DNA of 64,000 nucleotides from Zygnema cylindricum (lineage: Eukaryota; Streptophyta; Zygnematophyceae; Zygnematales; Zygnemataceae), in assembly GCA_037447655.1 (NCBI GenBank), contig JBBHKE010000402.1, positions 93,126-157,125 of the forward strand, written 5' to 3'. The translations under genes and the position numbers were made by a program. Of the stretch, positions 29,484 to 51,171 are shown in pieces. The notes beneath the pieces are model-generated. The model was not told where the DNA came from. It saw only the letters and a list, made by a program, of their open reading frames with translations, and did not search any database. How positions within the stretch are numbered: position 1 is the first letter of the stretch; each line of letters opens with the position of its first letter.

Positions 29484-30641
29484 TGTCAAGCTCTTGTGCT
29501 TTTCAGGCATACTTTTATATCACCAAGGATTTTCAGGCCCTTTTTACCCTATACGGTCTTCAGAGTACGCGAGAGAGAGTGCACCAAGCCAAACGATATT
29601 CTTGTTTTTCCTAAAGTGAGCGGAACGCACTTTATTTCGCGCCTAACGGAGGCCAAACCACGAAGTTCCACCGTCTTAAAGATTGCAATTTTGCTACATG
29701 TGACTAGTTTCTGATAGCCCTCGTGGAGGGTACATTGTGGATTGCCACGTAACTTTCCGGATTTGCATCTAGATTATGCTATAAGCCGTCAATAAGAATT
29801 TAGTTCAGGCTCAGCTGACTTGTGGTCCATTAATTACACCAGGTCAAAGTCTGGCAAGTTAGTGTCCTTCTCATGACATTGTCTTATAATAGTGTAACAA
29901 ATAATTCTTCCGGCCGCGGATCTAGCCGCAATCTGGAGCATAAATTTTTGCCCATAGTGTAGTAAAGATTAATTTGTCTCATGTTAGTTCCATTACACTT
30001 GCTTGCCGCTCATTGGTTAATAGTGTAGCTTTGACTTTGGGACCGGCAATTTGACAAACTTTGATGTATAAGGCACTTGGGGTCGAAGGAGACAGTCTCC
30101 TGTGAAAACCCTCATAAACTCCAACAAACCTTTTTTTGGAGAATCTTTGTGTTGTTTCAACTCTATTGTCATCTTGGTTTTGGATCTCTCTTTTGTGGAA
30201 ATCACAGGCTAGATGGGTAGTTGACAATATGTTCTTTTTGGGTGATTAAGGACTTTTTGCTGTTTGGAACCAAGAAGAGTTTGGTTGGTTCCGAGCTGAG
30301 GACACCGAAGGTTGCAGGAGTACCATACCCTTTTAACGATACTATCGGGAGAGGGGTCGCCTTTTTCTAATTGTCATTGTTGATTGGTAGGGTATATTAA
30401 GCTTACTTTGCTACATTTCACATTTTCAATCTTTTATTCTCTTTAATGGGGCAAGGAGATATTGTTAAATCTGGAAAGACAATCATATTTATTTATATAT
30501 ATCTACGTGGTAGTGCATTTGTGTCTTTGTCTAGAGTTCTCTTTACTTTTGAGAGACCGTTCCGGAGTAAACTGAAACCTTCTGGATCAAATCAACGGGT
30601 TTTGAGGGAACATGTGCGATAGACTTTCCGTAGACAAACCA
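29484..30641 (+). mobile_element. Ty3/gypsy 5' LTR, 5'-truncated
   Basis: Homologous to about 48068-49243 of the 3' LTR. Shared blocks include TTTTCAGGCATAC, TATATCACCAAGGAT and CGATACTAT. Homology ends at GTAGACAAACCA (30641), matching GTAGACAAAGCA at the 3' LTR end. The first 280 or so bases of the LTR are missing at the junction with the family-A copia LTR. Confidence 0.8.
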
Positions 30642-32498: not shown

Positions 32499-33464
32499 TA
32501 TTGTTTTTTGGAAAGCTTTAAGTCCCAACAAATTTATAGGACGGGGGAAAAAAAAATCTATAAGGACACGCTTCGTCACGTGAAGCACAGTGTAGGCTTT
32601 TGAATGGTACCGACAACGGAGCAGCAACGCAGATGGAACAAGCGCAGCTGCAGTTATTTTTTATATTGTCCGTACGAACGAACGCAGCCTGCGATGCAAC
32701 GCGACAAACGCAACTGGTGATATTTTGGTACATGACAACGCAGTTGCTACACAACAACATAAACGCAGCTGCGGCTGTTTTTGGTATGGGAGAGCTTAGC
32801 TGCTACAAAGCTAGAGATATTTGAATGTGATTAGGAATTGGACTGCGTTGATATGGTTGATATACAGACGCGATTAATAAGAGAATAATTAAGTGACTCG
32901 CTAACAAATGTTATACAACAGCCGGATGGACGTACCCAGACAATTGTCACTAAGCCAGGCGACAAGAATTTGAACAAATCACCTGTATAGGATTCTTAAT
33001 AATATTGATTGTACATCGACATGTTAGTTTTAGTGTGATTAGGAGCACTTAGACCTTAGTGGCGGTTAAGTTGTTTTGGACGTATCTTTTAGAAACACTT
33101 ATATCTGCGATACAACATTATGTAGTAGGACAACTGAGTGAAGAGTATAAGACTTATGACGTAGACCATTTTATGTATCCAAACTTCCATACTGTGTAAT
33201 TTGCAGACTGTTTTTGGGAAACTTTTGAGTTACACATCTTTGTGTATGTTCAATCAAATGAGCATAAACTTTGGGAGTTGTTAGTCTTTGTGATATTCTA
33301 TACTGTATTATAGTTTGAAGCAGTTTGTTTCACTGTGTCAGATTTGGTGAGTTGTAGAAAACTGCTGTTTGATAGGATTCTTGATAAACTTTTATGAGTG
33401 AGATAATGTCTACTTCCACTACTAGTGCTAACGCTCCACCTGCTCCACTGGTCGTAGAACAACA
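32499..33464 (+). mobile_element. family-C copia 5' LTR
   Basis: Begins TATTGTTTTTTGG (TGTTGTTTTTGG in the inverted copy, so the second base is mutated) and ends GTAGAACAACA. It is preceded by the target duplication AAAAC (32494-32498). It includes repeated CGCAGCTGCGG / GCAACTGG-type palindromic motifs near 32610-32775. The Gag ATG at 33406 lies 59 bases inside the LTR end. Confidence 0.85.
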
Positions 33465-36400
33465 GGTTATAAACCTTTCATCAAGAATTCCTATTTTCCA
33501 GGGAGAAAAATACGCGCATTGGGCGGATATGGTGGAAACACACTTTGAAAATGTTAATCTTTTGGATATTGTGGATGGTTCACTAGCGGAATCGAATTTG
33601 TCTTGGTCAAAGAAAAATTCGCAAGCTTTGTCAATTTTGAAATTTTGTAATTCACAAGAATTGGCTATGTCACGGATAAAAATGAAAAAGGCGATCGATA
33701 TCTGGAAATCTCTTAAGGATGATTTTGAAAAGGTTAATGTTCAAGAATAACTATTTTTGGCTGGACGGATTTAGGACTACAAATACACGAGTGGCAAAAT
33801 GGAAAATATTGTAACAAATTTCAATTACTAATAGATTCTCATGCTTGTGCAGGTGGATCTTTTCCTTTGTTTCAGCAGGCTGCTTTGCTAATGAGAGGTT
33901 TTCTTAATATTATGAGAGCAGCGTGTGATAGGCTGAAACAAAAAGATAAAGCTAGCTGGACACTACAATTAGCTATCAATTTGATATTAGAAGAGGAGGA
34001 AGATTCTAATATTCTTAATGGTGAAAAACAAGTAGAGGCATTTAGCACAAAATTTGACAAAAAAGGTCAGATTAATTAGCAGAGAAATCAGTTCACTCAA
34101 AATCAGAATCAGTTTAGACTGTTGAATCAAAGAGGAAATAGACAATCTTTCAATGCTTGTTTTTATTGTAATGAAAAATGCCATGGATATAAGTTCGGTC
34201 CTAAGCTTAAAAAAGCCAATGATACAGGTCTGTATAGGCTTGGATGGCAGCAGAGCCAATTTCATCAAGGCTTCACAAGATCTTCACAACTAGGAAATAC
34301 GCTCTTCTCTGTGTCTTCATCTCATCAGGACGAGTCTCTTTCACTCTCTGACAAGGAGGATGATGATCTATTTGCTATGGCGGCAGCGATAGAGGGCGCG
34401 AAAGACAATAGATGGATAATGGACACGGGAGCGTCGGCCCACATGTGCTAGAACAAGGCAGTTTTCAAAAATCTGAAATCAACACCGGAGAAAAATATCT
34501 ACTATGCATGTGAAATGAGTGTGCAAACGCGGGTTGTAGGTGATCTCTCCTTGCTAGTTGATGTAGGGGGCAAGGCAGTTGAGATGACTCTTCATAATGT
34601 TCTCTATGTCTAGGATTTTAAGAAAAAAATGTTTTCAACGTCTTTGGTAGAAAGTAAAGGGTTTGGGGTCAATCTGAAACATGGCAGGCAGGTCGTTAGC
34701 AAAAATGGGAAAAATGATGTTACAGGAACAAGAGATGCCAGCAGAATGTAACGAATGGATATGCCCGATAATAAAGAAAATGATGTTTTGTATTCCGGTG
34801 CATTATCCTCAGATGAGCTGTGGCATAAAAGGTTAGGCCATGCGAATTATGATAGTATGAAAAAGATGGTCAATGCTGGTAAAATAGAAGGAGTCACTTT
34901 GTCAAATCAGTCACCTAAGACGTGTGATGGATGTGCACTAGGAAAAATACACAAATTACCGTTTCCTTAGGAGTTTGAACATAGGTCTACTAAACTTTTG
35001 CAACTCAATCATTTTGATGTTTTCGACCTTGCAAAGGTACCATCAGCCGGGGGATGAAATATATGGTTACGTTTACAGATGATTTTTCGAGGTTACTAAG
35101 GTCTACTTCATGAAGGAAAAAAGTGAAGTCTTCACTCATTTTCAACACTACAAAGCGTGGGCATAGAAACTACACGGTCTGCCATTTTTGGAGCTCAGAT
35201 TGGACAATGGCGGAGAATATACGTCAAAAGAGTTTGAAAACTTCTTACTCAAGGAAGGTATCAGTCACAAACTGACTGTCCCATACTCTCTGGAACAAAA
35301 TGGCGTCTCAGAACGACTAAATAAAACTATTATAGAAAGCTCTAGGTCCATGCTTGCAGATAAGGACGTAGATCCGAAATTCTGGGCTGAAGCATTAAAT
35401 TGTGAAGTTAATATCAAAAATAAGATAGGTTTAAGATCGGTAGAATCCACTCTTTATGAGATCTGGAAGGGTGGAAAACCTGATGTCAGTCATTTCAAAG
35501 TCTTTGGAAGTAAATGCTTTATTTTGGATACGTCTAATGATAGATGGAAAATAGAACCCAAGGGATTGCCGTGCATTTTGTTAAGATACAATGATCACTC
35601 TAAAGGTTATACAGTCTTTGTTTTTGAGAACAAGAAATCATTATAGCAAGAAACATCGTTGTCAAAGATGAACTAGACTCGATAGACTTATTTAAAATGA
35701 CATAGCAGCAGAAGCAGCCAAAAGGAGAGGAATATGTCATTTTAGATAGCATCCATAATATTGTCCCACATATGCAAAATTCACCAGTATTAACAACGGA
35801 GTCGAAACATTATCGGGTTCCACAACAAATTCGTTTTGAAGCGAACCAAGAGCAGTCAGTGCCTACGGATCGCAACCAGCGCAACAAGCGCAATGCACGT
35901 GACCTGACAATTTCAGCCAAAGAATTTCCAGGAGGAAGAAGATCCAGTAGCCGTCTGCAAGCAAGTTCTCACTTCGCCTACTCGGCAGCATCACGCGAGC
36001 CTCTAATCATCCAGGAAGCCTTCTCATCAGTGCAGCAGAATCATTGGATCGAGGCGGCAAATAATGAAATGAAGTCAAACATAGAGGCTCAGACATGGGA
36101 GATTGTGGACCTTCCTCCGGATCAAAAAGCGATCGGCAGCAAATGGGTATTCAAGGTGAAGTTAAATCCAGATAATACCATTGAACGACACATGGGTTAA
36201 CTTGTGGCAAAGGGGTATAATCAAAAGGAAGGAATTGACTTTGAAGAAACATTTTTTCCTGTTGTAAGATTTCCGACAGTTATGATTTTCCTATCTCTAG
36301 CTGCTATAGAAAATATGGAAATACATCAGATGGATGTAAAAACGGCCATTTTGCATGGACAACTAGAGGAGACCATTTACATGCAGCAGCCTGAAATGTA

Positions 36401-37604
36401 TGCAGATTTAGGAAAAGAGCACTTAGCATGCAAACTGCTAAAATCTTTGTACGGCCTAAAACAGGCCCGTAGGCAATTGATTCTAAAACATGATGAAGTC
36501 TTAACCGGCATAGGATTTAAAAGGATAAGCTCTTATCACTCTGTCTATGTTTTAAAGGGTGAGGATGGAAAAGTGTATATAGCGGTATACGTAGATGATT
36601 TACTATAAGTTAGCAAATCAATGGCATAAATTAACAAAATTAAAAATACTTTAAAATCACGGTTCGAGATGAAAGACCTCGATGAGGCAAAATATATCTT
36701 GGGTATTCAGGTAGAGAGGGACAGGAAAAATAGATTAATTAAATTGACTCAAAAGGAGGCTATTGGAAACATGTTAGATGAATATGGAATGCGGGGGGCA
36801 AAAGGATGTGTAACACCAATGGAGTTTCGGCATAGGTTAGAGGGGGAAGAAACAGAACCGGGTGTTATTGTCAGTGAAATTTGTGAGTCAGGGGAGGATG
36901 ATCTTATGACACTGAAACCTTACAGTCAGATAGTGGGAAATTTAATTTATTTCATGAACTGTACCCGTCCGGATATTGCTGCAGCAGTTTGGGTACTGAG
37001 CACAAGTCTAGAAAATCCGAGGAAATCTGACCGTGATGCAGCAAGAAGAGTTTTAAGATACTTGGTAGGAACCAAAGACCTCAAACTCACACTAGGCGGA
37101 GGAGAAGTGAAGCTGCAAACATGGAGTGATGCAAGTTATGCCGACATGCCAAGTCGAAAATCCACCACGGGATTCGTTCTGCAAATTGGGAACCGGACTT
37201 GCCGTTGGAGCAACAAACTTCAAAAGGTTACGACACAATCGACGATGGAGTCAGATTATATGGCAGCGAGCTCGGTCCTCAAAGAACTTCTAAGGGTGAA
37301 ATCCATGTTGCAAGAATTGGGATACATGCAGGTTGGTCCACAGGTGATCTAGTGTGATAACCAGGCTGCCATTGCCATTGCTTCTAACGCAAGTCACCAC
37401 TTCAAAAGCAAGCACATAGATGTAAGATTACACTTTGTAAGGGAAAAATTGTTCTCTAGAGTGATTAAATTATGCTATTTGCCAGATGCAAAAATTGATG
37501 TTGATATGCTTATTAAAGCTCTTCCTACTCATAAGCTGAAGTATTGTAGGGACGCAGTGGGATTAAGTGAAAAGCTGAGTTGCTGCACAGTTATATTGCC
37601 ATGA
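33406..37604 (+). pseudogene. family-C copia gag-pol
   Basis: Gag (33406-34080, LSSRIPIFQGEKYAHW and a W-x-SLKDDFEK block); CCHC knuckle near 34140-34185 with the last Cys replaced by Gly; protease WIMDTGASAHMC near 34413-34450; GAG-pre-integrase WHKRLGHANY and CDGC (34822-34960); integrase with LDNGGEY and NGVSERLNK (35190-35640); RT (36040-36740, with YVDD at 36588-36599, then a stop); RNase H (36940-37560, with SDASYADMPSRKSTTG). It is more complete than the neighbouring elements, with all domains in order, but roughly ten stops and several frameshifts disable it. The inner PBS GGTTATAAACC (33465) is weaker than in other families. Confidence 0.88.
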
Positions 37605-37735
37605 TGCGCTAGTCCAATAACGGGGATGTAGTGGGACTAGGTGACTTGCTAAATTGCTAAGTTGTTATACTGCGATGCTGCGCTAGTTCGACATCGAAGC
37701 TACGATGGAATATTAAGTCTAAAGCTTTAGAGGAG

Positions 37736-39786
37736 TGTTTTTTTTGGAAAGCTTTAAGTCTCAACAAATTTATAGGATGGCGGAAAAATAGATCTGTAGG
37801 GACACGCGTCGTCACTTGAAGCACAGTGCAGGTTTTTGAATGGTACCGACAACGCAGCTGCGATGTAGATGGAACAAGCGCAGTTGCGGTTATTTTTGAT
37901 ATGTTCTGTACGGACGAACGCATCCTGCGACGCAACGGGACAAAAGCAACTGCTGATATTTTGGTATAGGACAACGCAGTTGCTACAAAAAAAGACAAAC
38001 GCAGTTGCGGTTGTTTTTGGTATGGGAGAGCGTAGCTGCTACGAAGCTGCAGATATTTGTATGTGATCAGGAACTAAACTGCGCTACTACGGTTGATTCA
38101 ATCAAGTCAACGGACGAGATTAATAAGAGAATAACTAAGTGACTCGCTAACAAATGTTCTACAATAGCTGGATGAACGTACCTTGACAATTGTCACTAAG
38201 CCACGCAACAAGTATTTGAACAAATCACTTGTATATGATTCTCAGCAATATTGATTGTACAGTGATAGATTAGTTTTAGCGTGATTAGGAGCACTTAGAC
38301 CTTAGTGGCAGTTTAGTTATTTTGGACGTATCTTTTTGAAACACTTGTATCGGCAGTACAACACTATGTAGTAGGACAAGTGAGTGAAGAGTATAGACTT
38401 AGGACGTGGAACATTTTATGTATCTAGATTTCCAGAGTGTGTAATCTGCAAACTGTTTTTGGGAAACTTTGAGTTGCATATCTAGGTAAGTGTTTGATCA
38501 ATTGAGCTAAAACTTTATGAGTTGTTAGTCTTTGTGATATTCTATACTATAGTATAGTTTGAAGCTGTTTTTTTCACTGTGTCAGATTTGGTGAGCTGTA
38601 GAATACAATTGTTTGATAGGATTCTTGATATGTTTTCTGTCACTAAGATTATGTCTACTTCCACTATTATAAGATAACCTCCACCTGCTCCAGTGGTCGT
38701 AGTGAAACTCTGAGACCTCCATAAGTCCTCAGAGTGGACAACTTCTAAGAAACCTCGAGGATAACCCTGACCCCTTTGTGTTTAAGCAAGAACAACTGCC
38801 ACCTTGGCAGAAAAAAACACTGACCAACTTCACCTTTGTGAAGGCAAGACTTCCTTGAGTCGATAGCAAAAAGAATCTCTGAATTTGCTCCCCTGAGCAG
38901 TAAGTTATGGAGGGTCAAAGTTGACCTTTTGTTCACAAGCTCTCTAGGAGAGAGGGTCCTATCTCCTAATTTTTCTAAGTCCTATCACTCTCACAAACTC
39001 TAACTACTGATATACGGAGCCAATTAGATTACACTTCCGTACACAAAACTACAGCTGCCGGTGTACTTTCTGTACGAACACTGTACGACATGGCCTAAAT
39101 GTCGACACGTGGTATATCCAGATTCGCAGCCCTTAATCCTTCGAGATGCCGCAATTCAATGTCATTCCGCCACGTGTCATCTGTTGTGGCGATGACCAAA
39201 AACCGCCGAAATCCTTTTCCTTGATCTCGACGTTTAATTTCGGCCGTCCGATTCAATTCACATTTAATCGTAGCCGTAATAAATACATGCGCGGTATTTA
39301 TTTCGCTAAAAAAATAAATGCGCGGTATTCGTTTCTTATCCGTACCATAATCCTTACTTTAACATTACTGGATCTATGTCTCCCGTAAAACAGTTTCCGT
39401 TAAATGAACTATCCTACGTATTAATGTTTAATTAATTATCAAACCTTAGAGTACGTAACACTATGTCTAGACTTAACGATTAAGGCTACCGGCTACCAGC
39501 TGATTACCGTCCGGCACGTACCAGGATGAAATGCTGCAGTAGTCACATATCCTTTTCGTAAATAAACCCCTAACGCTAAATAAACTTATATATATAATTC
39601 CCGTAAACCTCTGGATAGCCTAGGTAGCCATGGCACTAGCTTCCTCTCCAACTTTTCAGTGACTGCGACAAGTTTGAGAGTAGGAGAGAGAAGTTAGAGG
39701 TAGACTGCCTCGGCTTCTTTCTATATTTCTACTTAGATCTAGAAAATACTTTAAACTGACCATTAATTTCTACACGTAGAACAACA
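37736..39786 (+). mobile_element. family-C copia 3' LTR, split by a solo LTR
   Basis: Starts TGTTTTTTTTGGAAAGC after the purine tract TTAGAGGAG. It runs to GGTCGTAG (38702) and is completed by AACAACA at 39780-39786. AAAAC (39787-39791) follows, duplicating the sequence before the 5' LTR. The LTR without its insertion is about 974 bp, close to the 966 of the 5' LTR. Confidence 0.85.
38703..39774 (-). mobile_element. family-A-related solo LTR (CGTAG target duplication)
   Basis: A 1072-bp element with TG/CA ends (plus-strand TGAAACTCTG and AATTTCTACA), flanked by CGTAG at 38698-38702 and 39775-39779. In minus orientation it starts TGTAGAAATTAATGG, then a GTATTTTCTAG block as in other family-A LTRs. 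It inserted into the last few bases of the family-C 3' LTR. Confidence 0.85.
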
Positions 39787-41795
39787 AAAACTGCAAGCAT
39801 TAGGAAGTGCCTATGTTAACCAGGTGGAAGCCATTCAGGTAGCCCAGGCAGCAACTCGCATGGTTGCTAACCGAACCCTTGTACCACTTTGCTTAACATC
39901 TGGAGACTCCTCTACACAGAGAGGAATAAGTCAGCAATCAAGGAATTCACGGAATTTTGATGCTTGAAGAACGAGACTCCCCAAACTCTCGTCAACCGAA
40001 ATTAAAGCATTTGTCAGAAAACGAAACTGTCCATGATTGACATTGTGGCAATGGCAACTAAATACTTTATCGCTGTCTATAATTCATTTGGATCAACAAG
40101 GAAGACTGCTCTAGATAACAGGATTGCCCGAAAGGTAATTTAAGACATTAATCCCTCCGCCAAGGACATTTCGTTGGTAATGAAATTGTACGATCACTTC
40201 GTCCACAGTAAGGGAAGGGAGAAGGCTGTGACCGGCAAGGCCTGCGCAAATTTTGCACGATTCGTCGGGGAGACCTCCTTGAGCGAGGAGGAAAAAGCTG
40301 AACTTCAAGCTTTGCGGAAGCTCAAAGGGAAGCAAGTGGCTGACAGCGGGCCAGAACTAGCCATGGGAGCAGACGACAGAGTTTTCCTTTACAATTGCCT
40401 AAATTGTCTGCAAACCGATCATTGGTGGAAGCAGTGCACACGAAAACTTAAACCGGAGCTGGCCTTCAAGTTAAAGAAATAGGAAAATGAACGTGCAGAA
40501 ACGAACTTGAAAGAGTAAAAAAAGCAAAAGGGAGGGAGGGGAGAAGACAAGACCTTAGTAACCAAGGATACTTACCGTCCCACTCCTTGGAGCGAAACCT
40601 CTAAGATGTCCTAATCTCATTTGCGGCAAATCAAACTTCCAAAGTTTGATGACGCTCAAATCTCCTAAGAGATCCGTAGTAAATATACCATCGAGGGCGC
40701 CAAGTGCAAAGCTTGTAGATTTATGGGGCACAAGGAAGGGCAATGTTTCCGGAAAAATGGAGAACTCAAGGAAATGATGCAATTTGCTTTCTTTACTGGA
40801 GAAGGAGAAACAGCCGTTAACCCTCTCCCACTCCAACTTCTGTACTCTTGGAGGCGCCAACTTATGTCCACGCTGGAGAGACCGGAGCGAGCCCCAGCAG
40901 CTCCGGCCAAGCTTACGCCAAAGATCATCCTACAACAGCAGAGTCAGCAGCTGGCCGCAATGGCTGCAGAGTGGGGTGCGCTCCGCTTGGGATCTTCTTC
41001 TCGACCTGCTCCTCTCACAGCAGCACAACGACTCCAAAGCAAAAACACGAGTTGTTACAGAAGCTCGCGGAGCTTGAGCTTCAAGGCAAAGTAGGTGCCA
41101 ACGATGACGACATATTAAGCTGGGATTTGGAACCCCTAAATGCCCACAATGCCCAAACCTTCCTCTATAGAGCTTGGAATGTTAGGGTGGGAGACAGTCG
41201 CCGCCAACTCCGCAATTCCACCTCGATAGAATGACTAGACAGGCAGAAAATGGGTCAGAGAGATCACAACCGGAAAGCTACAAGGCATTTGTCATTTACT
41301 CCCAAGGCACTTATGCTAAACAGCGACATCGGTTGAGGAATCAAACCCTATCACCCACCATCTCTTGCTCCCAAACCTAAATTGCCTCCCACTTTCGAAA
41401 ATTACCAAAAGGAGAAACAACAGCGAGAGGAGTCAATGGAACGAGAGAAAAAGGACTATCAAGACTAGTTTGAGAAATATATGGCAGAACGCCTCGAGAA
41501 TGACACTCCCCAAACACCTCCTATCCCAGATTCCGGCTCCGAGAGTGAGAAAGAAGAACAAGATTTCGATCTACAGGAACCGAACTCATCCCCATCTTCA
41601 CCGAAAGCAACACTTCCTTCCTCCAAACCGGCGGTCATGCTAGTCCCACAACTCATGCCATATGCCCTCACACACGTGAAGACTCTATCACCCTCCCACA
41701 ACCTACCCGAATAAATCCTCATTCAGGCTTTGGGAGAGGAGATCCACTTCTGAAAAGGAGGAGTCTACAAGACCACTCCGCCAACCACAGTCTTT
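39787..41795 (+). pseudogene. gypsy gag, second part, with two CCHC knuckles
   Basis: Continuation of the Gag interrupted at 32498. The first knuckle CLNCLQTDHWWKQC is at 40396-40437 and the second CKACRFMGHKEGQC at 40705-40746. Both keep perfect C-x2-C-x4-H-x4-C spacing, so nucleic-acid binding was a late-maintained function. Basic and glutamine-rich stretches follow, including a predicted coiled coil (KEKQQREESMEREKKDY, about 41402-41460) and an acidic proline/serine-rich linker (41500-41720). Stops and frameshifts occur near 39965, 40035, 40480, 40650 and 41235. Confidence 0.78.
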
Positions 41796-42430
41796 TTGTC
41801 CAACGATCCGAAAACCCATATAGTGGATAGGGACTACAAGGCCTTATCAGTGGCTCTTATACAGCTCCGAACCGCGAACTTCAAGCTCAACGGGTACAGG
41901 GGATACCAAGACGCTGTGGTCGACACCAAAGCGCTCCCCAACCTCATCACCACCTCCGCTTTACAAAAAAATGCAAGAGGAACTCCGGCCTGAAATCTAC
42001 CTAAGCAATATGTGCTTAAGCACCGTAAGCAGCGACAATCAACCAGTCCATGGAATAATCAAGGCCATGAAAATCGAGTTTTTTGATGACGGAGGCCAAC
42101 AGGTGAAAATTGAGCTTCCCTTCTTGGTGGTGGAAGGGACTCAATTCGAAATTCTGTTGGGAATGGCCACTTGGACCCGGCTCAATATGAGTTTGAGCTT
42201 GTGGAACGAACAATGTACCGTTCGCGACCTTGGAAATCCGAAAGGAACCAAAGTGGTGGTTCCTTTGGATTTATGGAACCGGGGAAGACAAATGTCCATG
42301 TGTCTGATTGCTACCCAGTGTACACTACATTATCTCCGACGGAACTATTTGGCAGTTCTACAGATATCGCCAAAGAAATCTATTAATTCCCAATTTCCAA
42401 CCGGTGGGAAGAGGAATATAAGAATAGATT
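41796..42430 (+). pseudogene. gypsy retropepsin-like protease
   Basis: A beta-rich domain with VVDTKALPNLIT at about 41916-41950. The aspartate is GAC 41922-41924, but the usual Asp-Thr-Gly reads Asp-Thr-Lys. A frameshift near 41970 leads to MKIEFFDDGGQQV and then FEILLGMATWTRL (about 42147-42185), equivalent to the ILG-x-x-W/F C-terminal part of gypsy proteases. It would process the polyprotein, but the altered active-site triad suggests it is inactive in this copy. Confidence 0.7.
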
Positions 42431-43545
42431 ATTGCAGGTAGCAAAACTCCGGCGGGGAGTGGATAAGACATTTTCGGCCTTAACATTGAAGGAAGCCGTT
42501 TCTACACCACTGTCTAATGCTACCAAACCAAAGTCCAGTAACGAGGAGTTAAATCGACAAGTGGTGTCATTCGCAGTCCCCAATTTCGGATTGCGTATTT
42601 TATCTCTATTTTCGGGAATCAGTTCCGATTTGGAAGCGGTTTTGAAACAGGCTACCTGTTGGAGTCATACATAGCCGTGGAAATACCACACGAGGCACGT
42701 GTTGTCAGCGAACACCACCTCTATCAACTTCATCACCTATATCCTCAACAGCTTTCACTAACAGCCTTTTTTAAAGCTCACCGAAGTCTTCCCCAAAATG
42801 TACAAACATCATGGCGCACCATCTAGCTAGTTTGGGAAGAGTGGATTTTGTGTTGGCAGGTTGGCCTTGTCAAGGATACTCCCTAGTGGGACAAAGAAAA
42901 GAGCATCAAGACCGCAAAAGTGGAACATTTCACCGGATGATCGAATTAATCACAAGGCTTCAACAGCTCCAAAACACACAGTGGTGTACGTTTTAGAGAA
43001 TGTTAACCAGGGAGATGATAAAAAGAAACAAGTTACGGACAGCTATAATCATGTAACCCGGATTTTAGGAGCTTCTTGGGTTTTCAACGTCGCACACATG
43101 GGATTCCGTGCATACAGAGTAAGGGGATATTAGACCAAAATGATCTCGCTTCCAGTACTCGGACGACTGTTGGACAAGCGAATTCCCTACCCGCTGAATT
43201 CGGTGCAGCAAATACCGAGGAAGGCAGGATGGCCACACCTGTGACGCGACCAAACCGCTCTCCTTTCTTTCGTTGCAACAAATCGAGATTACCACGGAGA
43301 ACACTACCGGCTTTGTTTTCTTTCCCTTACAGTCACGTTTATCGGAAAGGAGCATCCTGAATGATTTTTGACAGTAAGGCGGGAATCTGGACAACACCGA
43401 TGATTGCAAAATGGGAAGAAGCTATAGGATTTCATAAACCATTAGAGGTGCAGCCTAATTGGGTAGAATATGGATTTGAATTCGATCACATGGGTACTCA
43501 AGCATGCACTCGCCTTTTCCAGTCTCAAGTCCCCCGAATCTAGGG
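42431..43545 (+). pseudogene. cytosine-C5 DNA methyltransferase embedded in gypsy pol
   Basis: Between protease and RT lie the ordered C5-methyltransferase motifs. Motif I is LSLFSGI (42601-42621, SAM binding). A motif II-like AVEIPHEARVV follows (about 42680-42710). Motif IV is VLAGWPCQGYS, with the catalytic Cys codon at 42868-42870. Motif VI is VLENV (Glu-Asn-Val at 42996-43004). A motif VIII-like RAYRVRGY lies at about 43107-43130, and a C-terminal IAKWEEAIGF (about 43405-43435) resembles motif IX/X. Frameshifts near 42665, 42800 and 42960 and stops near 43131 break it. The known reaction of the family is transfer of methyl from SAM to C5 of cytosine. Motif IV is the PCQ type rather than the DNMT3 PCN type. 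I do not recognise regulatory domains, so it is catalytic-domain-only. Confidence 0.83.
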
Positions 43546-43816
43546 TTGTTTACCTTCAAGCTCCTTAGTTGTTAGCGATGCAGGCAATTTTGCAGCTTGA
43601 GAGGGGGAGAGAAAGGAGAGGAAAAATTCACATTTCACCACCGCAGGTTTCCTAAGTGGGGGGGGCGCCGACTTAGATGGCGACAGCTAAGCGGAAGTTG
43701 TCAGCAGTAGGGTCCTAGTTATAAGAGTAGAGGCAGATCCACTGGTATAATTGGATTTCAACATTAACCTCTGGGGTAGACCGCCGGAGGCTTAAGCTTC
43801 TGTAGAGCTTGGGAAA
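43546..43816 (+). other. linker between methyltransferase and reverse transcriptase
   Basis: About 270 bases, G-rich in the middle (a run of eight G at 43659-43666), with stops in all frames. No domain is recognised. It is probably a decayed inter-domain linker of the polyprotein. Confidence 0.4.
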
Positions 43817-45539
43817 ATGATTTGGACACTAAGGGAGAAGTTGGATCCTCAGCAGAAGGCGCAGCTCTTCGAGCTATTAGCCAAAAACAAGCAGGTGTTC
43901 TCATGGTCAGAAACAGATGTCGGTATTTACAAAGGAACGCCTTTTCGAATCGATTTGATCGACGAGACGGCTATTGTTTCGCACAAACAGTATCCTCTTA
44001 TTTTCAAAGAAAATGAATTCCTCACGGCTAAAGTCCAAACTTTGGTGGAAGCCGGATTAGTTCAGGAAAGTACATGACTTCATGGGTTTGCTTCCCCGAC
44101 AGTCCTCCCTCCCAAAAAGGACTTGTCTGGGAAGACTATAATTTTTTGGATGTGTGGAGATTATCGCATGCTGAACACGGCCACCATCTTTGATCGATAT
44201 CTGATGCCGACCGCGGAAGAGATATTCGACTCTTTTGCTAGCGCCACTATCTACTCTACTCTGGACATGAAAAATGGTTTCCATGGAACCGAAGCACAGG
44301 GAGAGAACTCCATTTTGGGCTGATTTTGGACTTTCTGAATGGATTTACATGCCCTTCGGGCTTAACAATGCACTGGCCGAATTCCAACAGGCAATGGACA
44401 AAGCGCTTTGAGAAATCGAGTGTGCCCGGTGCTATATTGATGATGTTATCATCTTCTCAAAGACTTTTGAGGAACATCTTGAGCATGTACAGATCGTTCT
44501 CCGGGCACTCGAAGCCACGCGCATGAAATGTCACCCGGGCAAAGGTATTTTTGGGGTACAGAAAATCATTTACCTCAGACACGAGGTGACTCCCAGGACT
44601 GTGGGTCCCCACATGGTTAAAGTGGCAGCCCTTAACGCTCTTCCCTCACTGTAGGACATCTCGGCCCTTCGCACCTTTCTGGATCTGGCCAACTACTATC
44701 AGCGGTTTATCCCCGAGTTCAGTAGTCACGCTTAGCCCTTTCACCAGCTATTGCGTCAGGACCAAGTGTGGCATTGGGCCGAAGAACAACAGATATCCTT
44801 TCAGTTCTTCAAAGATGCTGTGAAGCAGCAACTCTTGCTCCGGATGCCTTATCACCAGAGGCCTTTCCTCCTTTATAGCGATTGGAGCATGTTTGGATTG
44901 GGAGTAGTTTTGGCTCAAGTCGATGATGCTGGAGCTGAATATGTGGTGGCCTACGCCACCCGGAGCAACAACGCAGCAGAGGGGAATTATAGCAGTTACC
45001 AGGGAGAGTTACTCGCATCAGTTTGGGCCATCCAACATTTCAGGCCTTATTTGTACAGAGGACATTTCACCTTGAAATCGGATCACCAACCCCTGAAATG
45101 GATCATGGAAAATAGTAAGTTAACCGGCAAACTTGCAGATGGGTTTTTATCCTGTAGGAATATGATTTCGACAATGTTCATAGGGCAAGGGAAATCCATG
45201 GGAATGCGGACGGACTTAGCCGGAATCGTCATCCCTCCACCATGGATTCTACAGGGGCTCGGCATGATGATGACCCTGAGATCAGTCTGGGGCTCATTTA
45301 AGCATCCTTTGCTTTCATTTGGGTTCACCAATCTGGGGGGGAAACTGTCAACTTTATCGTTCGACGTAGAGGGGCAAGCGCCCATAGGGGCCAGACAGAA
45401 GGACATCCGAAACGACGCCGATGCTCTCCAATCTATCCAGCAGGGGTCGCCTGTGAGTACAGACCCGCATGGCTGCGTATGATTGGGACAGAGGCGTTCT
45501 CTTTCAGAAATGGGCAGACGACACGAGGAAAGTGGTTTT
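43817..45539 (+). pseudogene. gypsy reverse transcriptase and RNase H
   Basis: N-terminal connection FELLAKNKQVFSWS (43868-43910). RT fingers and palm follow with FWMCGDYRMLN (about 44142-44175) and STLDMKNGFH (44260-44290). The catalytic YIDD is intact at 44433-44444. The thumb has DISALRTFLDLANYYQRFIP (about 44656-44715). RNase H has LLYSDWSMFGLG, with Asp at 44880-44882 and an SDHQPLKWI motif near 45080. After a one-base shift near 45125 the frame continues with LARWVFILQEYDFD and DGLSR, the classic end of gypsy RNase H. Stops and shifts occur near 44077, 44324, 44410 and 44653. It is interrupted at 45540 by an inverted solo LTR. Confidence 0.88.
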
Positions 45540-46441
45540 TGTTGTTCTACAACCACTGGAGCAGGTGGAACATTAGTCGTAGTAGTGGATGTAGACATAA
45601 TCTCACCCACAGAAGCTTATGAAGAATCCTATCAAACAGCTGTTTTCTACAGCTCACCAAATCTGATACAATGTATCAAACTGCTTCAGACTATACCACA
45701 TTATAGAATATCACAAAGTTTGACACCTCCCATAGTTTCAACTCAATTGATTCAAAATACAGGAAGATATGCAACTTAGAGGTTTCCCAAAAACAGTTTG
45801 CAGATTTCATAATTTGGAAGTCAGGATACATAAAATATTCTACGTCTTAAGTCTTATACTCTTCACTCAGTTGTCCTACTACATAGTGCTTTACCGCCGA
45901 TACAAGTGTTCCAAAACGATACATCCAAAATGACTAAACTGCCACTAAGGTCTAATTGCTCCTACTTATGCTAAGAACTAATCTATCACTGTACATTCAA
46001 TATGACTGAGAATCCTATACACGTGATTTGATCAAATACTTGTCGCCTGGCTAAGTGAATCTCGTATGTTGAATTGATTCAGATCAACCGCAGTAGCGCA
46101 GTTGAATTCCTGATTATATTCAAATATCTGAAGCTTCGTAGCAGCCTCGTTATCACATACAAAAGTTAGCCGCAGCTGCGTTTATCTTGTTGCGTAGCAA
46201 CTGCATTGTCATGTACCAAAACATATGCAGTTGCGTTTGACCTGTTGCGTCGCATGCTGCGTTCGTCCGTACATACCATAAAAATAACCACAGTTGCGCT
46301 TATTCCATCAAAGTCGCACCTACGTTGTCCGTACAATTCAAAAACCTGCACTGTGATTCAAGTGACGACACGTGTCTATATAGATCTATTTTTCCGCCGT
46401 CCTATAAATTTACTGAGACTTAAAGCTTTCCAAAAACAACA
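45540..46441 (-). mobile_element. family-C solo LTR, inverted, in gypsy pol
   Basis: On the minus strand it starts TGTTGTTTTTGGAAAGC (46441) and ends GTAGAACAACA (45540), 902 bp. Flanks are GTTTT (45535-45539) and GTTCC (46442-46446), a plausible but diverged 5-bp duplication. The Gag ATG (complement of 45596-45598) is inside the LTR, as in the full element. Confidence 0.8.
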
Positions 46442-47783
46442 GTTCCTCCCCCCTTTGACTAAGAAACTCTGATTTCCAATCTCCATCGGCAATGTGGACA
46501 ATTCGGGCAAAAGCGGACCAATTCCTTAGTTACGGGCTCTTATTGGTGGCATGGGTTGCGAACCCAAGTCAACCGAATTGTGTAGACTTGCTCCTCATGG
46601 GATCCAGTCAAGGATGCTTTTGACAAAAAGGGCGGGACTCAGCTTCATTCGCTTCCTATCCAGGGGATGTTTTATCGATGGCCGTTGGATCTTTTGGGAC
46701 CTCTTCCGACAAGCAGGCGTGGGAACCGCTTCGTGTTGGTAATGATAGAACATATTTCCAAGTGGATCAAGTTGGTGGTTTTGCCCCGAAAAGAGTCAAG
46801 GCAATTGCGGATGCCTTTATGCAGAGGGTTTTAGCCGAATTCAGGGCGCATGCGGAAGTTCTAACCAACCAAGGCTCAAATTTGCTGAAGAATTTTCCAA
46901 CCTCTTAGAAAAATACCTAGTCGTCTATCGGCTCACCATCCGTGACCACCCTCAAGACGACGGCTTGGCCGAAAGGTGCGTACAAACAGTAAAGTGGTCA
47001 CTAAGAAAATATGCAGTTGAAGAAGGTTTGGGGGAGTGGGACAGAAAAGTGCCTTGGATTGCTATGGGTTACAAATTCAGAAGGCATGCTTCTCTCCACT
47101 CCTATAACATTTATTTCATTCTATTTGTACGACATCCCATCTTGCCCAGAGCTGCATCGGCCCAAGCGGTGGTCCTCCCGGAGATGGATGCCAAAGGGAC
47201 AGTCAAAAAACAGATCGTCGATAGAGCCAAGATATTCCAGAGAGAGATGCCTATCGCCATGGGAAATTTGCAAGCAGCTCAACACCGAGATCAGTTGTAG
47301 TATTTTCAACGCTGGAGCGGGAATTATGTTCCACGCCAACGACGATTAAATGCCGGGGGACTTTGTATATCGGATGCAACAGAAGAAAGACACGCTCGAT
47401 ATTTCTGTTCGGAGAGTAATTTTGAAAGTGGTTGAAGTTTCCAAATAAGGGGTTCTTACATTGGAGGGAAAGGATGGTTGACGCATTAAAGAGAATCATG
47501 TCAATGTGGCCCCCTGCCATCTTCGAGGATTGGAAGAAGAACCCACTTTCTACTTAACTTACTTTGTCGATCCTCTTTCCTGTTCATCGGCTTGCATTAA
47601 GTCCTCCCAGCTACACGACATTTTGATATGCAATCAGTGTGGCGAGTGTTGGCATTTAGCGTGTCTCCCCTCCTCTAAGGAGCCACACCCTCTGCCCTCG
47701 AGCACTTGGTTTTGTGGGAAGTGCGAATGGAGCGGGTAATTGTTTTTATATCTTAGTCACGGTTGACTAAAAGGGGGGAAAGT
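46442..47783 (+). pseudogene. gypsy integrase with C-terminal PHD-like zinc finger
   Basis: After the solo LTR the frame DPVKDAFDKKGG leads into the integrase core, YRWPLDLLGPLPTSRRGN and VLVMIEHISKWIKLV (about 46673-46790). The latter part follows with DGLAERCVQTVKWSLRKY (about 46957-47012) and a C-terminal SH3-like region with KKDTLDISVRRVILKV (47380-47430) and APCHL (about 47506-47520). Then come Cys/His ligands DPLSCSSAC, LICNQCGECWHLACL and TWFCGKC (about 47570-47735), the C4-H-C3 layout of a PHD finger. A stop follows at 47737. Gypsy elements commonly carry a chromodomain here; a PHD finger could instead read histone tails for target choice (inference). Several frameshifts and stops are present. 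Confidence 0.8.
47769..47782 (+). other. gypsy polypurine tract
   Basis: AAAAGGGGGGAAAG, immediately before the 3' LTR, the expected plus-strand primer. Confidence 0.75.
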
Positions 47784-49243
47784 TGGGATATCACCCCGAT
47801 TACCGAGACCCCAATCCCTTTCCCGGGCCAAGGGGGGGAAAGGAAGGGGGAGGGGATAACTTTTACCTTCCCCCTGCGCTCATCCCTATTCCATGTCCAA
47901 GCATCTCTCTTATTTTGCATGCATATCTATGGGAGGGATATAGGCAACAGTGGGCATGATCATCATTTTGGGGAACATTCCCATTCGGGGTTTATTTGCA
48001 TGACTCCAATGCCGCCGACTCCGGGCTGTGGCCCCTTCCCTCACGATAATCAGACACGCTCGACAGCTGTCATGCTCGTGTGGTTTTCAGGCATACCTTT
48101 ATATCACCAAGGATTTCCGGGCCTTATTTACCGTGTACGGTCTTCAGAGTACGGGGGAGAGAGTGCACGAAGCCGGACAAGATTCTTTTATTTCCTAAAC
48201 TGAGCAGAATGCACTTTATTTCGCGCGTAACAGAGGCGGGACCACAAAGTTCCACCATCTCAAAGATTGCAATTCTGTTACATGGGACCTATTTTTTGAC
48301 AGCCCGCGTGGGGGGTACATTGTGGATAGCAACGTAAATTTCGGGATTTGCATCTAGATTATGTTGTTACCTGTCAATAGGAATTTAGTTCAGGCTCAGC
48401 TGACTTTTGGTCCATTAATTACATCAAGTCAAAGTCTGGCAAGTTAGTGTCCTTTTCAAGACTTTGTCTTATAATAGTGGAACAAATAATTACTTCCGGC
48501 CACTGATCTAGCCGCAGTCCGGAACAGAAATTTTTGCCCCAAGTGTATTACGGATTATTTTGTCTCGTGTTAGTTCCATTACACTTCCTTGTCGCTCATT
48601 AGTTAATAGCGTAGCTTTGACTTTGGGACCTGCAATTTGAAAAACTTTGATGTATAAGGCACTTGGGGTCGAAGAAGACTGGTTGTTTTTTAGTAATGTC
48701 ATATGTGAAAACCCTCAGAAATTCCAACAAACCTTCTTTCGGAGAATATTTGTGTTGTGTCGACTCTTTTGCCATCTTGGTTTTGGATCTCTCTTTTGTG
48801 GAAATCACAGTCTGGGCGGGTAGTTGGCATTATCTTCCTTATGGGTGATTTTGGACTTTTTGTTGTTTCGAACCGAGAAGAGTCTGGTCGGTTTCGAGCT
48901 ACGGACACCGAAGGTTGTAAGAGTACCATACCCTTTAACGATACTATCGAGAGAGGGGTCGCCTTTTTCTAATTGTCATCGGTGATTGTAGAGGTACGTT
49001 ACGCTTGCTTTGCTACATTTCACATTTTCTATCTTTTATTCTCTTTTCAGGGGCAAGGAGATATTGTTAGATCTGGAGTGCCAATCATATTTATTTATAT
49101 ATATCTACGAGGTAGTGCATTTGTGTTTTCGATTGGAGTTCTTTTTGCTTTAGAGTGACCGTTTCGGAGTAAACTAAAACCCCCTGGATCAGGGTAGTGG
49201 GTTTTGAGGGAACACGTGCGATAGACCTCTCGTAGACAAAGCA
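47784..49243 (+). mobile_element. Ty3/gypsy 3' LTR
   Basis: A 1460-bp LTR running from TGGGATATCACCCC after the polypurine tract to GTAGACAAAGCA. Its last 1.17 kb aligns with the 5' LTR at 29484-30641. It includes GC-rich runs (AAGGGGGGGAAAGG near 47830) and a TATTTATATATATC stretch near 49092-49105. Frames within it have no recognisable product. Confidence 0.8.
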
Positions 49244-49332
49244 CAATTCGCATTCAGGGTTTATTAGCAGGACTCCAATGTCGACAACTCCGGGCTGTGG
49301 GCCCTTCCCTCACGTTAATCAGGCACGCTCGA
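49244..49332 (+). mobile_element. gypsy LTR fragment
   Basis: Repeats the block found at about 47983-48065 inside the 3' LTR (GGGTTTATT, ACTCCAATG, CTCCGGGCTGTGG, CACGCTCGACA). It is a truncated second LTR copy directly abutting the first and cut off by a family-A fragment. Confidence 0.65.
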
Positions 49333-51171
49333 CATGAATTCTGAAGTACAATGGAGGACACAGAATTGCATTTACGATAGAGGGATTGCTTTTTGAAAGT
49401 ACTAATGGGGAATTGTTTCGGGACAATTCAGGTGTCCGCCACCGGCTTTGGTGGAACTCACTATAAAGATTCATGTGGGGCTTCCCAAAAAACCAACTGG
49501 ATTTCAGATGCAACGCAAGGTAAAGGGAAAATCATTGTTATAGAAAGGGGAAAAAGGGAGAAAGGAAAAGGAACACCTATTGTGAGGGTAGCTAGGCTCT
49601 TGGCTACGGTGTCAATTATAGGGGTTATAACTAAAATTGAACAAACTAAGAATAGAATTAGGGAGTATAAAAACAATATAGCAAAACATCTAACATTTAG
49701 AAATGTGTGTAAGTCCATAGCATTCATTCTTTTAAATGAAACAAAGTCTTCAAACATCTGGGAAACACTAAGACAGATTTATAGGAGTGAGATTATACAG
49801 TGGCAGCAATTAGTTAAACAGGAAATAGAGGCCTATGTTCATAAAGGCGGTAGCATGATAGGGTTTGGCAATGATGTTGTTGCGTTATGTGTTGAGCTTG
49901 CTAGTGCAGGATATGTAGAATCTGAGGAGAGAAAGATTAACACACTAATCATGAAACTCCCTGATGAGTATGAAAACATCATTAACTATATGAAGGATAT
50001 GATTTGCTCCTCGTGAACTTGAAGCATTACCATGGGGATAATACTTGTGAGGGAAAGCACTTAGGAGCTTCATAAGGGAAGTGACAGGGTGAATGCACTA
50101 ATAGCTGGTGGTGATGAGCGGAAGCGTGATGAGAGGAATGAAAGTGACGAGTGGAAGCGTGATGAGAGGAAAAAAGACAAAGGTAAACCCTACCAGAACT
50201 TTGGTGGAAAGAGAGGGAGAGGAAAAGAAAAGGGAGCTTCGAAAGGAGGGTTTTGCTTCTTTTGTAGGGAACTGGGTCACTATATGGAGGAATGCCCTTC
50301 TTTGGAAGACCTTAGAAGTTGGAATATGGATGAGGAGGAACAAGGGGAAGAGGGGAAATAGGATGAAGATATTTTGGAGCTTCTCCCCATTGGTAGTATA
50401 GGGAAGAGAGAAAAGCACACAGAAATTCCACGAAAGCAACAATGTGCTTTTGGAGGTATAAGGGAATTAAAGAGAGAGGAGAAACTTGAGGGAGTTCAAA
50501 ATATTGAGAATAGTTTCATAGATATTTTGGAAACAGAAAACTATTCAGAAAGGGGAACTTCAACGGATTTCAAGGATAGGGGAGAAGAGGAATATTTAAT
50601 GAAATGTTTAGGGGAGGAGAAATATTTTTTGGGTATAAAAATAGAAAGTGATAGTGGAAAGAATTCCATAGAAGAGAGTAAGGAAAGTTCCAAAAATGGG
50701 GTAATTATCATGGATAAAAATAAAAGTAAGGATGATGTACATCATATCAGGAACTTAGTGGGGACTAATGGCTTTTCGGAAAATTTGGGGGGGGGTGGAT
50801 TTGACATCACTCCTTGGTGTAATGTCGCTTATGAAGATGTGCCAGCAAAAGGGTTATAATCCGGGTATATGTTGCAGATTGGGGATGGGGTTGACTGTTG
50901 GAAATGCAAAAGGGATAGTGGATTTTGCTTGGATGAAAAAGGGAGGAGGTGGATAAAATTGTTGCTCGGATTTACGAAAAGTGACATGCAAAATAAAATG
51001 TATGATCAACAAGATGAAATTATTTCGGATCATCTAATACACTTTCTTAAATATGAAGGTATTCGCTTAAAGCTTCATGAAGGAAAAAAAGAAAAGAAAA
51101 GAATAAAAAATATATATATTTCTTGTTTTCGATGGGAGTTGAAAGAAAAGTAGACTAGAAAATAAGGGGAG
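49333..51171 (+). pseudogene. non-autonomous family-A copia derivative
   Basis: A short family-A LTR end with ATG at 49351 and terminus GAATTGCA (49370) is followed by Gag. The Gag core 49393-50015 contains NIWETLRQIYRSEI and IMKLPDEYENIINYM. A basic stretch leads to an intact CCHC knuckle CFFCRELGHYMEEC (about 50254-50295). An acidic linker then passes directly into an RT-tail fragment EKYFLGIKIESD (about 50620-50655), a short charged spacer and an RNase H remnant (LVGTNGF to about 50900). Protease, integrase and catalytic RT are missing, exactly as in the minus-strand copy at 14496-15908. The reading frame is relatively long between stops, so this copy may be younger. A purine tract GAAAATAAGGGGAG precedes the LTR. 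Confidence 0.75.

Follow-up and report, generated by a model that had tools for sequence, protein, structure and literature searches.

Can a retrotransposon carry, as a part of its own, an enzyme that writes the very mark that hosts use for its silencing? This question is raised by a Ty3/Gypsy element of the streptophyte Zygnema cylindricum (Zygnematophyceae), contained in a stretch of 64,000 nucleotides (assembly GCA_037447655.1, contig JBBHKE010000402.1, positions 93,126 to 157,125 of the forward strand) that we refer to as the window. A first-pass annotation of this DNA had placed a cytosine-C5 DNA methyltransferase (MTase) between the protease (PR) and the reverse transcriptase (RT) of the element, and had taken the enzyme to be part of its polyprotein.

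A decayed methyltransferase inside a Ty3/Gypsy element

The proposed MTase proved to be real. A stop-free piece of the window in a single frame (positions 42775-42993, 73 amino acids) gave a significant match to the C5-methyltransferase domain PF00145, which it reached at E = 7.4e-7 with 29.3 bits, above the cut-off of 22 bits. Moreover, a family profile built from five intact relatives was searched against the 2032 stop-to-stop segments of at least 20 amino acids on both strands of the window, and five segments—all on the plus strand, all inside 42387-43357 and collinear—matched at E≤1, with no other segment of the window doing so. These segments correspond to profile positions 3-25 (E = 0.014, weak alone), 24-78 (1.3e-8), 76-136 (1.6e-15), 125-186 (4.5e-11) and 214-260 (1e-8). 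In a tblastn search with the same five relatives, the MTase match reached position 43529; a single weak stray match appeared at 47862-48200 (E = 0.043). Motifs I, IV, VI and VIII, which the annotation had listed, were located in the order given, together with motif II (Table 1). The gene is broken, with frame shifts between the successive motifs I, II, IV and VI and with motif VIII ending at a TAG codon. Judged by these matches, the region is a decayed, nearly full-length MTase of the Dnmt3 class, and the window copy is, by the state of its reading frames, a dead fossil of its Gypsy family.

The element around the MTase could be traced by its nucleotide similarity to another copy from the same genome (L042, on contig C1920), to which the window aligns at 68-74% identity over 39788-45537 and 46481-47778. 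The first of these alignments is continuous, so PR, MTase and RT are not separated by any LTR, in agreement with what had been noted from the letters. The match to a further copy, L046, omits 41213-41584. The domain order PR-RT-RNase H-integrase of Gypsy elements is present in the window, in the copies L046 and L048 and in the database protein P0005; in the window, the protease had no Pfam match and was identified by motif alone. Copy L034, too, has two zinc knuckles of this kind in its Gag frame. The PHD-like finger mentioned in the annotation lies just above the PF00628 cut-off (Table 1), and a PHD finger was found by eye at the C-terminus of four copies as well; the suggestion that this finger is a Gag knuckle was rejected, the Gag knuckles being separate. 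Between RNase H and integrase, the element is split by a solo LTR of copia type. The copia-type element from which its matches come spans 32504-38702, with LTRs that are 85% alike.

The ends of the element are less well preserved. A probable 3' LTR was delimited, and no 5' LTR of the window copy was found. At 29484-30641, the window contains what is probably a solo LTR from this Gypsy family, 85% like the probable 3' LTR. The 89 bases preceding the probable 3' LTR (47977-48065) recur directly after it (49246-49334) and are 89% alike. A primer pattern for initiator methionine tRNA occurred at chance level only, both in the window and in the metagenomic contig L002 described below.

Table 1. Features of the Gypsy element and of its surroundings, in positions of the 64,000-nucleotide window.
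Feature	Position	Strand	Basis or remark
Ty3/Gypsy body, gag to PHD, one decayed copy	39788..47778	+	nucleotide alignment to copy L042 (contig C1920)
Gag zinc knuckle 1, CX2CX4HX4C	40396..40437	+	sequence
Gag zinc knuckle 2	40705..40746	+	sequence
Aspartic protease, decayed	41922..42162	+	motifs only: DTKALPNL ... EILLG (relatives VDTGALPNLI ... EILLG)
Conserved-stop site (TAG CAA TTC in copies)	42381..42389	+	TAT TAA TTC in window copy
Leader and Dnmt3-class MTase	42387..43700	+	core about 42585-43529; frameshifted, TAG at 43131
MTase motif I	42591-42620	+	LRILSLFSGI
MTase motif II	42668-42685	+	YIAVEI
MTase motif IV	42841-42882	+	contains GWPCQG
MTase motif VI	42981-43004	+	contains VLENV
MTase motif VIII	43098-43130	+	TAG directly after, 43131-43133
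RT and RNase H	43796..45298	+	PF00078 5.6e-11, PF17919 1.3e-26, PF17917 1.6e-25; outer bounds read by hand
Inverted solo LTR of neighbouring copia-type element	45540..46444	-	foreign to the Gypsy element; matches 32504-33457 and 37740-38702
Integrase: H2C2 zinc domain, core, C-terminal part	46445..47564	+	PF17921 7.6e-8; nucleotide match to copies; outer bounds read by hand
C-terminal PHD finger (cysteines within)	47581..47724	+	PF00628 E 3.2e-5, 24.3 bits vs cut-off 24
Probable 3' LTR	48068..49243	+	48530-49116 matches LTR of copy C1374 at 69.5%

The methyltransferase recurs across the family

Relatives in the protein database were found through the RT. Queries with the MTase alone returned nothing from the protein database at E≤0.01, either as one frame with X at the stops (1387 candidates) or as five joined pieces (489 candidates); the RT/RNase H region of the window retrieved 55 proteins. 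At 63% identity, P0001 is the nearest of these; PF00145 is present in it and in P0004 and P0005—and in all three the MTase lies ahead of RT in one open frame, with P0005 (2352 amino acids) showing the order zinc knuckle-protease-MTase-RT-RNase H-integrase. A fourth protein, P0011, stayed below the PF00145 threshold (18.7 bits) and scored 514 bits with the family profile, in which P0011 is itself included. Its MTase is located between RNase H and integrase, not ahead of RT, and would either have moved within the polyprotein or have been gained anew. The family profile matched no further proteins among the 55; P0003 and P0006-P0010 start at most 164 amino acids from RT and are hence uninformative on an upstream MTase, and the more distant, full-length P0013 and P0015 contain no PF00145. 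The PHD domain PF00628 is also present in P0003, P0006-P0009, P0011 and P0013, the last being a related Gypsy protein with its finger between RNase H and integrase. Finally, a 9.3-kb contig (L002, CADCWO010000201.1) reads Gag-PR-MTase, UAG, RT-RNase H-integrase-PHD, with PHD and protease recognised by eye, so that MTase relatives are carried by four database proteins (P0001, P0004, P0005 and P0011) and this one contig. L002 is filed under a cyanobacterial metagenome-assembled genome; by its content it reads as a whole retrotransposon, and its contig ends overlap by 39 bases.

Within the genome of Z. cylindricum (G000; 352,776,454 bases, or 353 Mb, in 2689 contigs), a search with the MTase of P0001 led from 1757 first-look candidates to 117 further matches, all at E≤9.7e-87 and 43-58% identical—a count that is a lower bound, with the window copy itself absent from the table, and in which equal-scoring pairs on different contigs (C1920/C1974, C507/C1662, C839/C2519 and C2179/C2675) may represent duplicate contigs, not separate insertions. 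An internal stop is lacking in 29 of the 117, as counted from the table. PF00145 gave 123 genomic matches over its cut-off, in part at the same places. The gene content of this genome, with 88 matches to chlorophyll a/b-binding proteins and 20 to expansins, is that of a streptophyte; the lack of a dirigent match and the single dynein-MT match would favour a streptophyte alga, perhaps of the Zygnematophyceae, over a land plant with swimming sperm, with the caveat that dirigent and dynein gave no signal in the control genomes either. Among 30 copies that were fetched, 28 align by nucleotide to the MTase stretch of the window; the best, L015, does so over the whole of 42387-43700 at 79% identity.

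The MTase is therefore no peculiarity of the window copy. That a piece of a host Dnmt3 gene landed by chance in a single Gypsy copy is refuted by the presence of the same MTase ahead of RT in other copies, in P0001, P0004 and P0005 and in L002, and nothing was found in favour of such an event.

The 117 matches fall into several subfamilies, and the copies differ in their state of preservation. One frame runs from MTase through RT, RNase H and integrase to PHD in two of the ten copies read (L046 and L048, with 1520 and 1525 amino acids). RT was matched in 16 of the copies with a stop-free MTase; in six of these (L004, L008, L021, L023, L028 and L031) it is in a different frame from the MTase, and others have stops within RT; many copies could thus not make the long protein. 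LTR pairs were found in three copies—on contigs C895 (99.36% alike over 1250 bp), C1374 (97.5-98.6%) and C1735 (92-96%)—indicating that some insertions are recent. No LTR pair appeared in the stretches examined around C398, C544 and C1920 or in the shorter ones around C1974, C1662 and C161, and C2462 yielded no more than 319 bases that match at 66%. Inspection of C895 by eye revealed no repeated flank of the kind that a target-site duplication would leave. Additionally, the MTase on contig C1344 (L064) shares 38-43% identity with each of 13 other MTases, shows GWECQ in motif IV and is part of an open frame that is 2395 amino acids long. By this divergence, it is a second deep MTase lineage, i.e., at least two such lineages exist in one genome.

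Class and origin of the enzyme

When a profile of four relatives was compared with the PDB, DNMT3A came first (2e-22), followed by 4onj (5.7e-11; listed as a DNA methyltransferase, of the DRM type), DRM2 (1.7e-8), the bacterial HaeIII (6.4e-8) and a DNMT2-type enzyme (6.2e-7); none of the 58 PDB chains listed bears the name DNMT1 or CMT. An AlphaFold model with a weak mean pLDDT of 62 was matched by Foldseek to DNMT3 entries in all of the best 50 listed, at a TM score of about 0.5. Furthermore, the motifs follow the unrearranged order I-IV-VI-VIII-X, unlike those of DRM. By profile search of the PDB and by match of the predicted structure, the class of the MTase is Dnmt3. A phage or bacterial origin, raised by matches to PHROG and dcm profiles, was set aside, as the PDB profile favours Dnmt3. 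The viral contigs scanned held no relative of the window MTase family; a phage-like enzyme from these contigs (L001, 36%) was judged to be outside the family after its neighbours had been inspected.

In the RT tree, all eight MTase-bearing rows fall inside one clade of 13 rows with a support of 100/100, and the same clade holds four PHD-bearing fragments and P0010. A label test on this tree did not set the MTase-bearing rows apart from the PHD-bearing fragments as one group; it scored these fragments as MTase-less although their sequence does not extend into the region ahead of RT. The main split of the MTase tree agrees with that of the RT tree, and P0001 groups with the main copies of the genome (100/100). 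One early capture of the MTase would be the simplest reading of both trees.

Selection and catalytic motifs

The MTase appears to have been kept under constraint. Of the 30 copies fetched, 18 have an MTase that is full-length and free of stops. They form 153 pairs, of which 33 fell within 0.05<dS<1.5 and gave a median dN/dS of 0.205 (quartiles 0.13-0.25); the copies were chosen as stop-free, and the pairs are not independent. In 11 pairs, formed by 9 copies, both domains were usable, and dN/dS was 0.23 for the MTase and 0.13 for RT. By these ratios, the MTase is constrained, somewhat less than RT.

Another explanation, which we regard as very unlikely, is that the MTase has been retained as a non-catalytic part binding nucleic acid or S-adenosylmethionine (SAM). 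The proline of the PC motif is replaced by glutamate in P0004, P0005 and L064 (GWEC) and by serine in P0011 (GWSC), and motif VI was not found in L011, nor motif VIII in L005 and L015, in the motif check of the genomic copies. Against a loss of catalysis, GWPC is present in 25 of the 26 loci checked (a set that excludes L030-L033), with none found in L016, and the cysteine is kept in the other lineages; the PC, ENV and RxR motifs occur in most of the 26 copies, out of 30, that were checked. Activity may differ in the lineages with GWEC or GWSC.

A conserved stop codon between protease and methyltransferase

The view that the MTase is part of the polyprotein needed an amendment. The enzyme does belong to the element; it is not simply in one frame with PR, since in this genome an in-frame stop, TAGCAATTC, stands between the two and leaves the MTase as the leading domain of the part that follows. 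This exact sequence occurs in 27 of 30 loci, and two others have changed forms that still contain a stop (TAGTAATTC in L018 and TAACAATTT in L020, the latter read by eye); among the 30, only L026 has no stop site. The annotation had suggested looking for copies with PR, MTase and RT in a single frame: the part from MTase to PHD is open in L046 and L048, as described above, and the stop sets Gag-PR apart in the 27 loci. Of 28 loci picked by a pattern for this site, 23 have the stop in the frame in which their MTase match begins, and the other five have small indels between the two.

In a codon table of the 28 loci that fit TAG[CT]AATTC—a pattern that by itself fixes TAG, AA and TTC, leaving only the 27 of 30 as an independent count—the codons on either side of the stop vary, and just after it third positions vary too (CCG/CCT/CCA, ATT/ATC). 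Two subfamilies share the identical nine bases even though the synonymous sites of their MTases are saturated, and shared recent descent is thus no easy explanation of the conservation.

The context of the stop resembles a known signal. In type I readthrough, as described for tobacco mosaic virus, UAG is followed by CAA UYA (PMC2754532). The genome copies, with UAG CAA UUC, agree in five of the six bases after UAG and differ in the last; L002, with UAG CAA UCA, agrees in all six, and its stop lies behind the MTase. This position implies that the enzyme of L002 would be made at the dose of Gag. Type I readthrough is a feature of plant viruses; here, the candidate signal is in a retrotransposon. 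For gypsy-type elements of rice (RIRE2), candidate readthrough is cited in the same source (PMC2754532). The RNA fold predicted after the stop had a z-score of about -4 in two of six copies and of -0.5 to -1.3 in the other four. In L004 and L006, members of one subfamily, a strong hairpin is predicted about 10 bases past the start of the UAG, which was not seen in the other copies tested.

Taken together, we consider programmed readthrough the probable function of this stop. The competing view, unlikely in our estimate, is that the stop ends a separate Gag-PR frame and that MTase-Pol depends for its translation on reinitiation or on a different RNA; in both cases the MTase would be the N-terminus of Pol. 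Long open frames on both sides of the stop (664 amino acids before it in L034 and 582 in L042), the weak RNA fold in four of six copies and a context one base away from type I are all compatible with separate frames. Against separate frames stand the retention of TAGCAATTC in 27 of 30 loci across synonymously saturated subfamilies and the exact type I UAG-CAA-UCA of L002 on the other side of its MTase.

A model for a methyltransferase-bearing retrotransposon

We put at roughly 70% the explanation as a whole, namely that a Gypsy clade captured a Dnmt3 MTase, doses it by readthrough, methylates its own new DNA with it and has its insertion guided by PHD. According to this model, a Ty3/Gypsy clade would have taken up a Dnmt3-class MTase, most simply once and early, and purifying selection would have kept it there; dN/dS and the trees speak for this part. 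Pieced together from several copies, the element reads LTR-Gag (two zinc knuckles)-protease-TAG CAA TTC-MTase-RT-RNase H-integrase-PHD-LTR. Most ribosomes would halt at UAG and yield Gag-PR, and a minority would read through to yield the long protein; as the conserved stop and its context suggest, the MTase would thus be made and packaged at the dose of an enzyme rather than at that of a capsid protein. It may then methylate the new DNA of the element at or soon after reverse transcription, in the particle or in the nucleus, and the PHD finger linked to the integrase may read histone tails and so pick the insertion site. The likeliest advantage is a matter of speculation: new copies might resemble host DNA, or might settle in methylated chromatin, which would limit damage to the host.

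An alternative target for the enzyme also has to be weighed. The MTase could act on DNA or RNA of the host or of rivals instead of the new DNA of the element, perturbing silencing or defending the cell against other elements and viruses. The high copy number would make much enzyme possible, and it has been suggested in print that accessory domains serve in defence (PMC6338049). The in-frame fusion of the MTase to RT and integrase in L046, L048, P0001, P0004 and P0005 nonetheless ties the enzyme to the particle and to the element's own DNA, and we hold action on foreign targets to be unlikely.

A broader picture can be drawn, which we offer as tentative and less likely than not. An ancient streptophyte Gypsy clade might carry a two-part epigenetic kit—a Dnmt3 writer behind a leaky stop, packaged at the dose of an enzyme, and a PHD reader linked to the integrase—and, with the mass amplification seen in this genome, the parasite might co-set where and when its DNA is methylated. 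The question of why a retrotransposon writes the mark that hosts use for its silencing becomes testable here: elements that have an intact MTase and elements that lack one stand side by side in one genome, can be dated by their LTRs and can be compared directly in their methylation, their age and the sites of their insertion. From the conserved stop one may gather how the dose of the MTase is set, and the PHD finger points to a coupling, within a single polyprotein, between the writing of chromatin marks and their reading.

Comparison with known systems

Gypsy elements with a chromodomain (chromoviruses) carry a chromatin-reading domain C-terminal to the integrase. In the elements described here, a PHD finger replaces the chromodomain and an MTase is added before RT.

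The closest published case is KnitGypsy-Dnmt3, an LTR Gypsy element of the charophyte Klebsormidium nitens with an intronless Dnmt3-class MTase in its Pol polyprotein (de Mendoza et al. 2018, PMC5890265); the published charophyte capture mentioned in the first-pass annotation is thus real. The capture of a DNMT by a Gypsy element is already on record for one charophyte, and our finding would extend that case. The published text gives a Ka/Ks below 0.2, i.e., purifying selection, and reports that the enzyme had no activity in yeast, a result judged inconclusive by its authors (PMC5890265). Both systems are Gypsy elements with a Dnmt3-class MTase, and the Ka/Ks below 0.2 in K. nitens stands beside a dN/dS of about 0.2 here. 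Compared by published description only, K. nitens has fewer copies than Symbiodinium, and 117 matches were found here; the term PHD has no occurrence in the main text of that article, and in its description of the element we noticed no mention of a join at a stop codon (PMC5890265).

In the dinoflagellate Symbiodinium, the same source describes SymbioDIRS-Dnmt3 and SymbioLINE-Dnmt, a DIRS and a LINE bearing DNMTs, whose captures it calls independent, and it reports de novo CG methylation in yeast for SymbioDIRS-Dnmt3 (PMC5890265). These, too, are retrotransposons with a DNMT of their own, yet they belong to other retrotransposon classes. An article of 2019 repeats the KnitGypsy case and describes methylase-bearing transposons as absent from land plants such as tracheophytes (PMC6338049). 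In the literature on DNMT-bearing Gypsy elements, judged mostly by title or abstract, we recognised no report beyond PMC5890265 and, citing it, PMC6338049. Set against these systems, four features of the Z. cylindricum elements look new: their mass amplification, the presence of several MTase lineages in one genome, the combination of MTase and PHD finger, and a probable control by readthrough.
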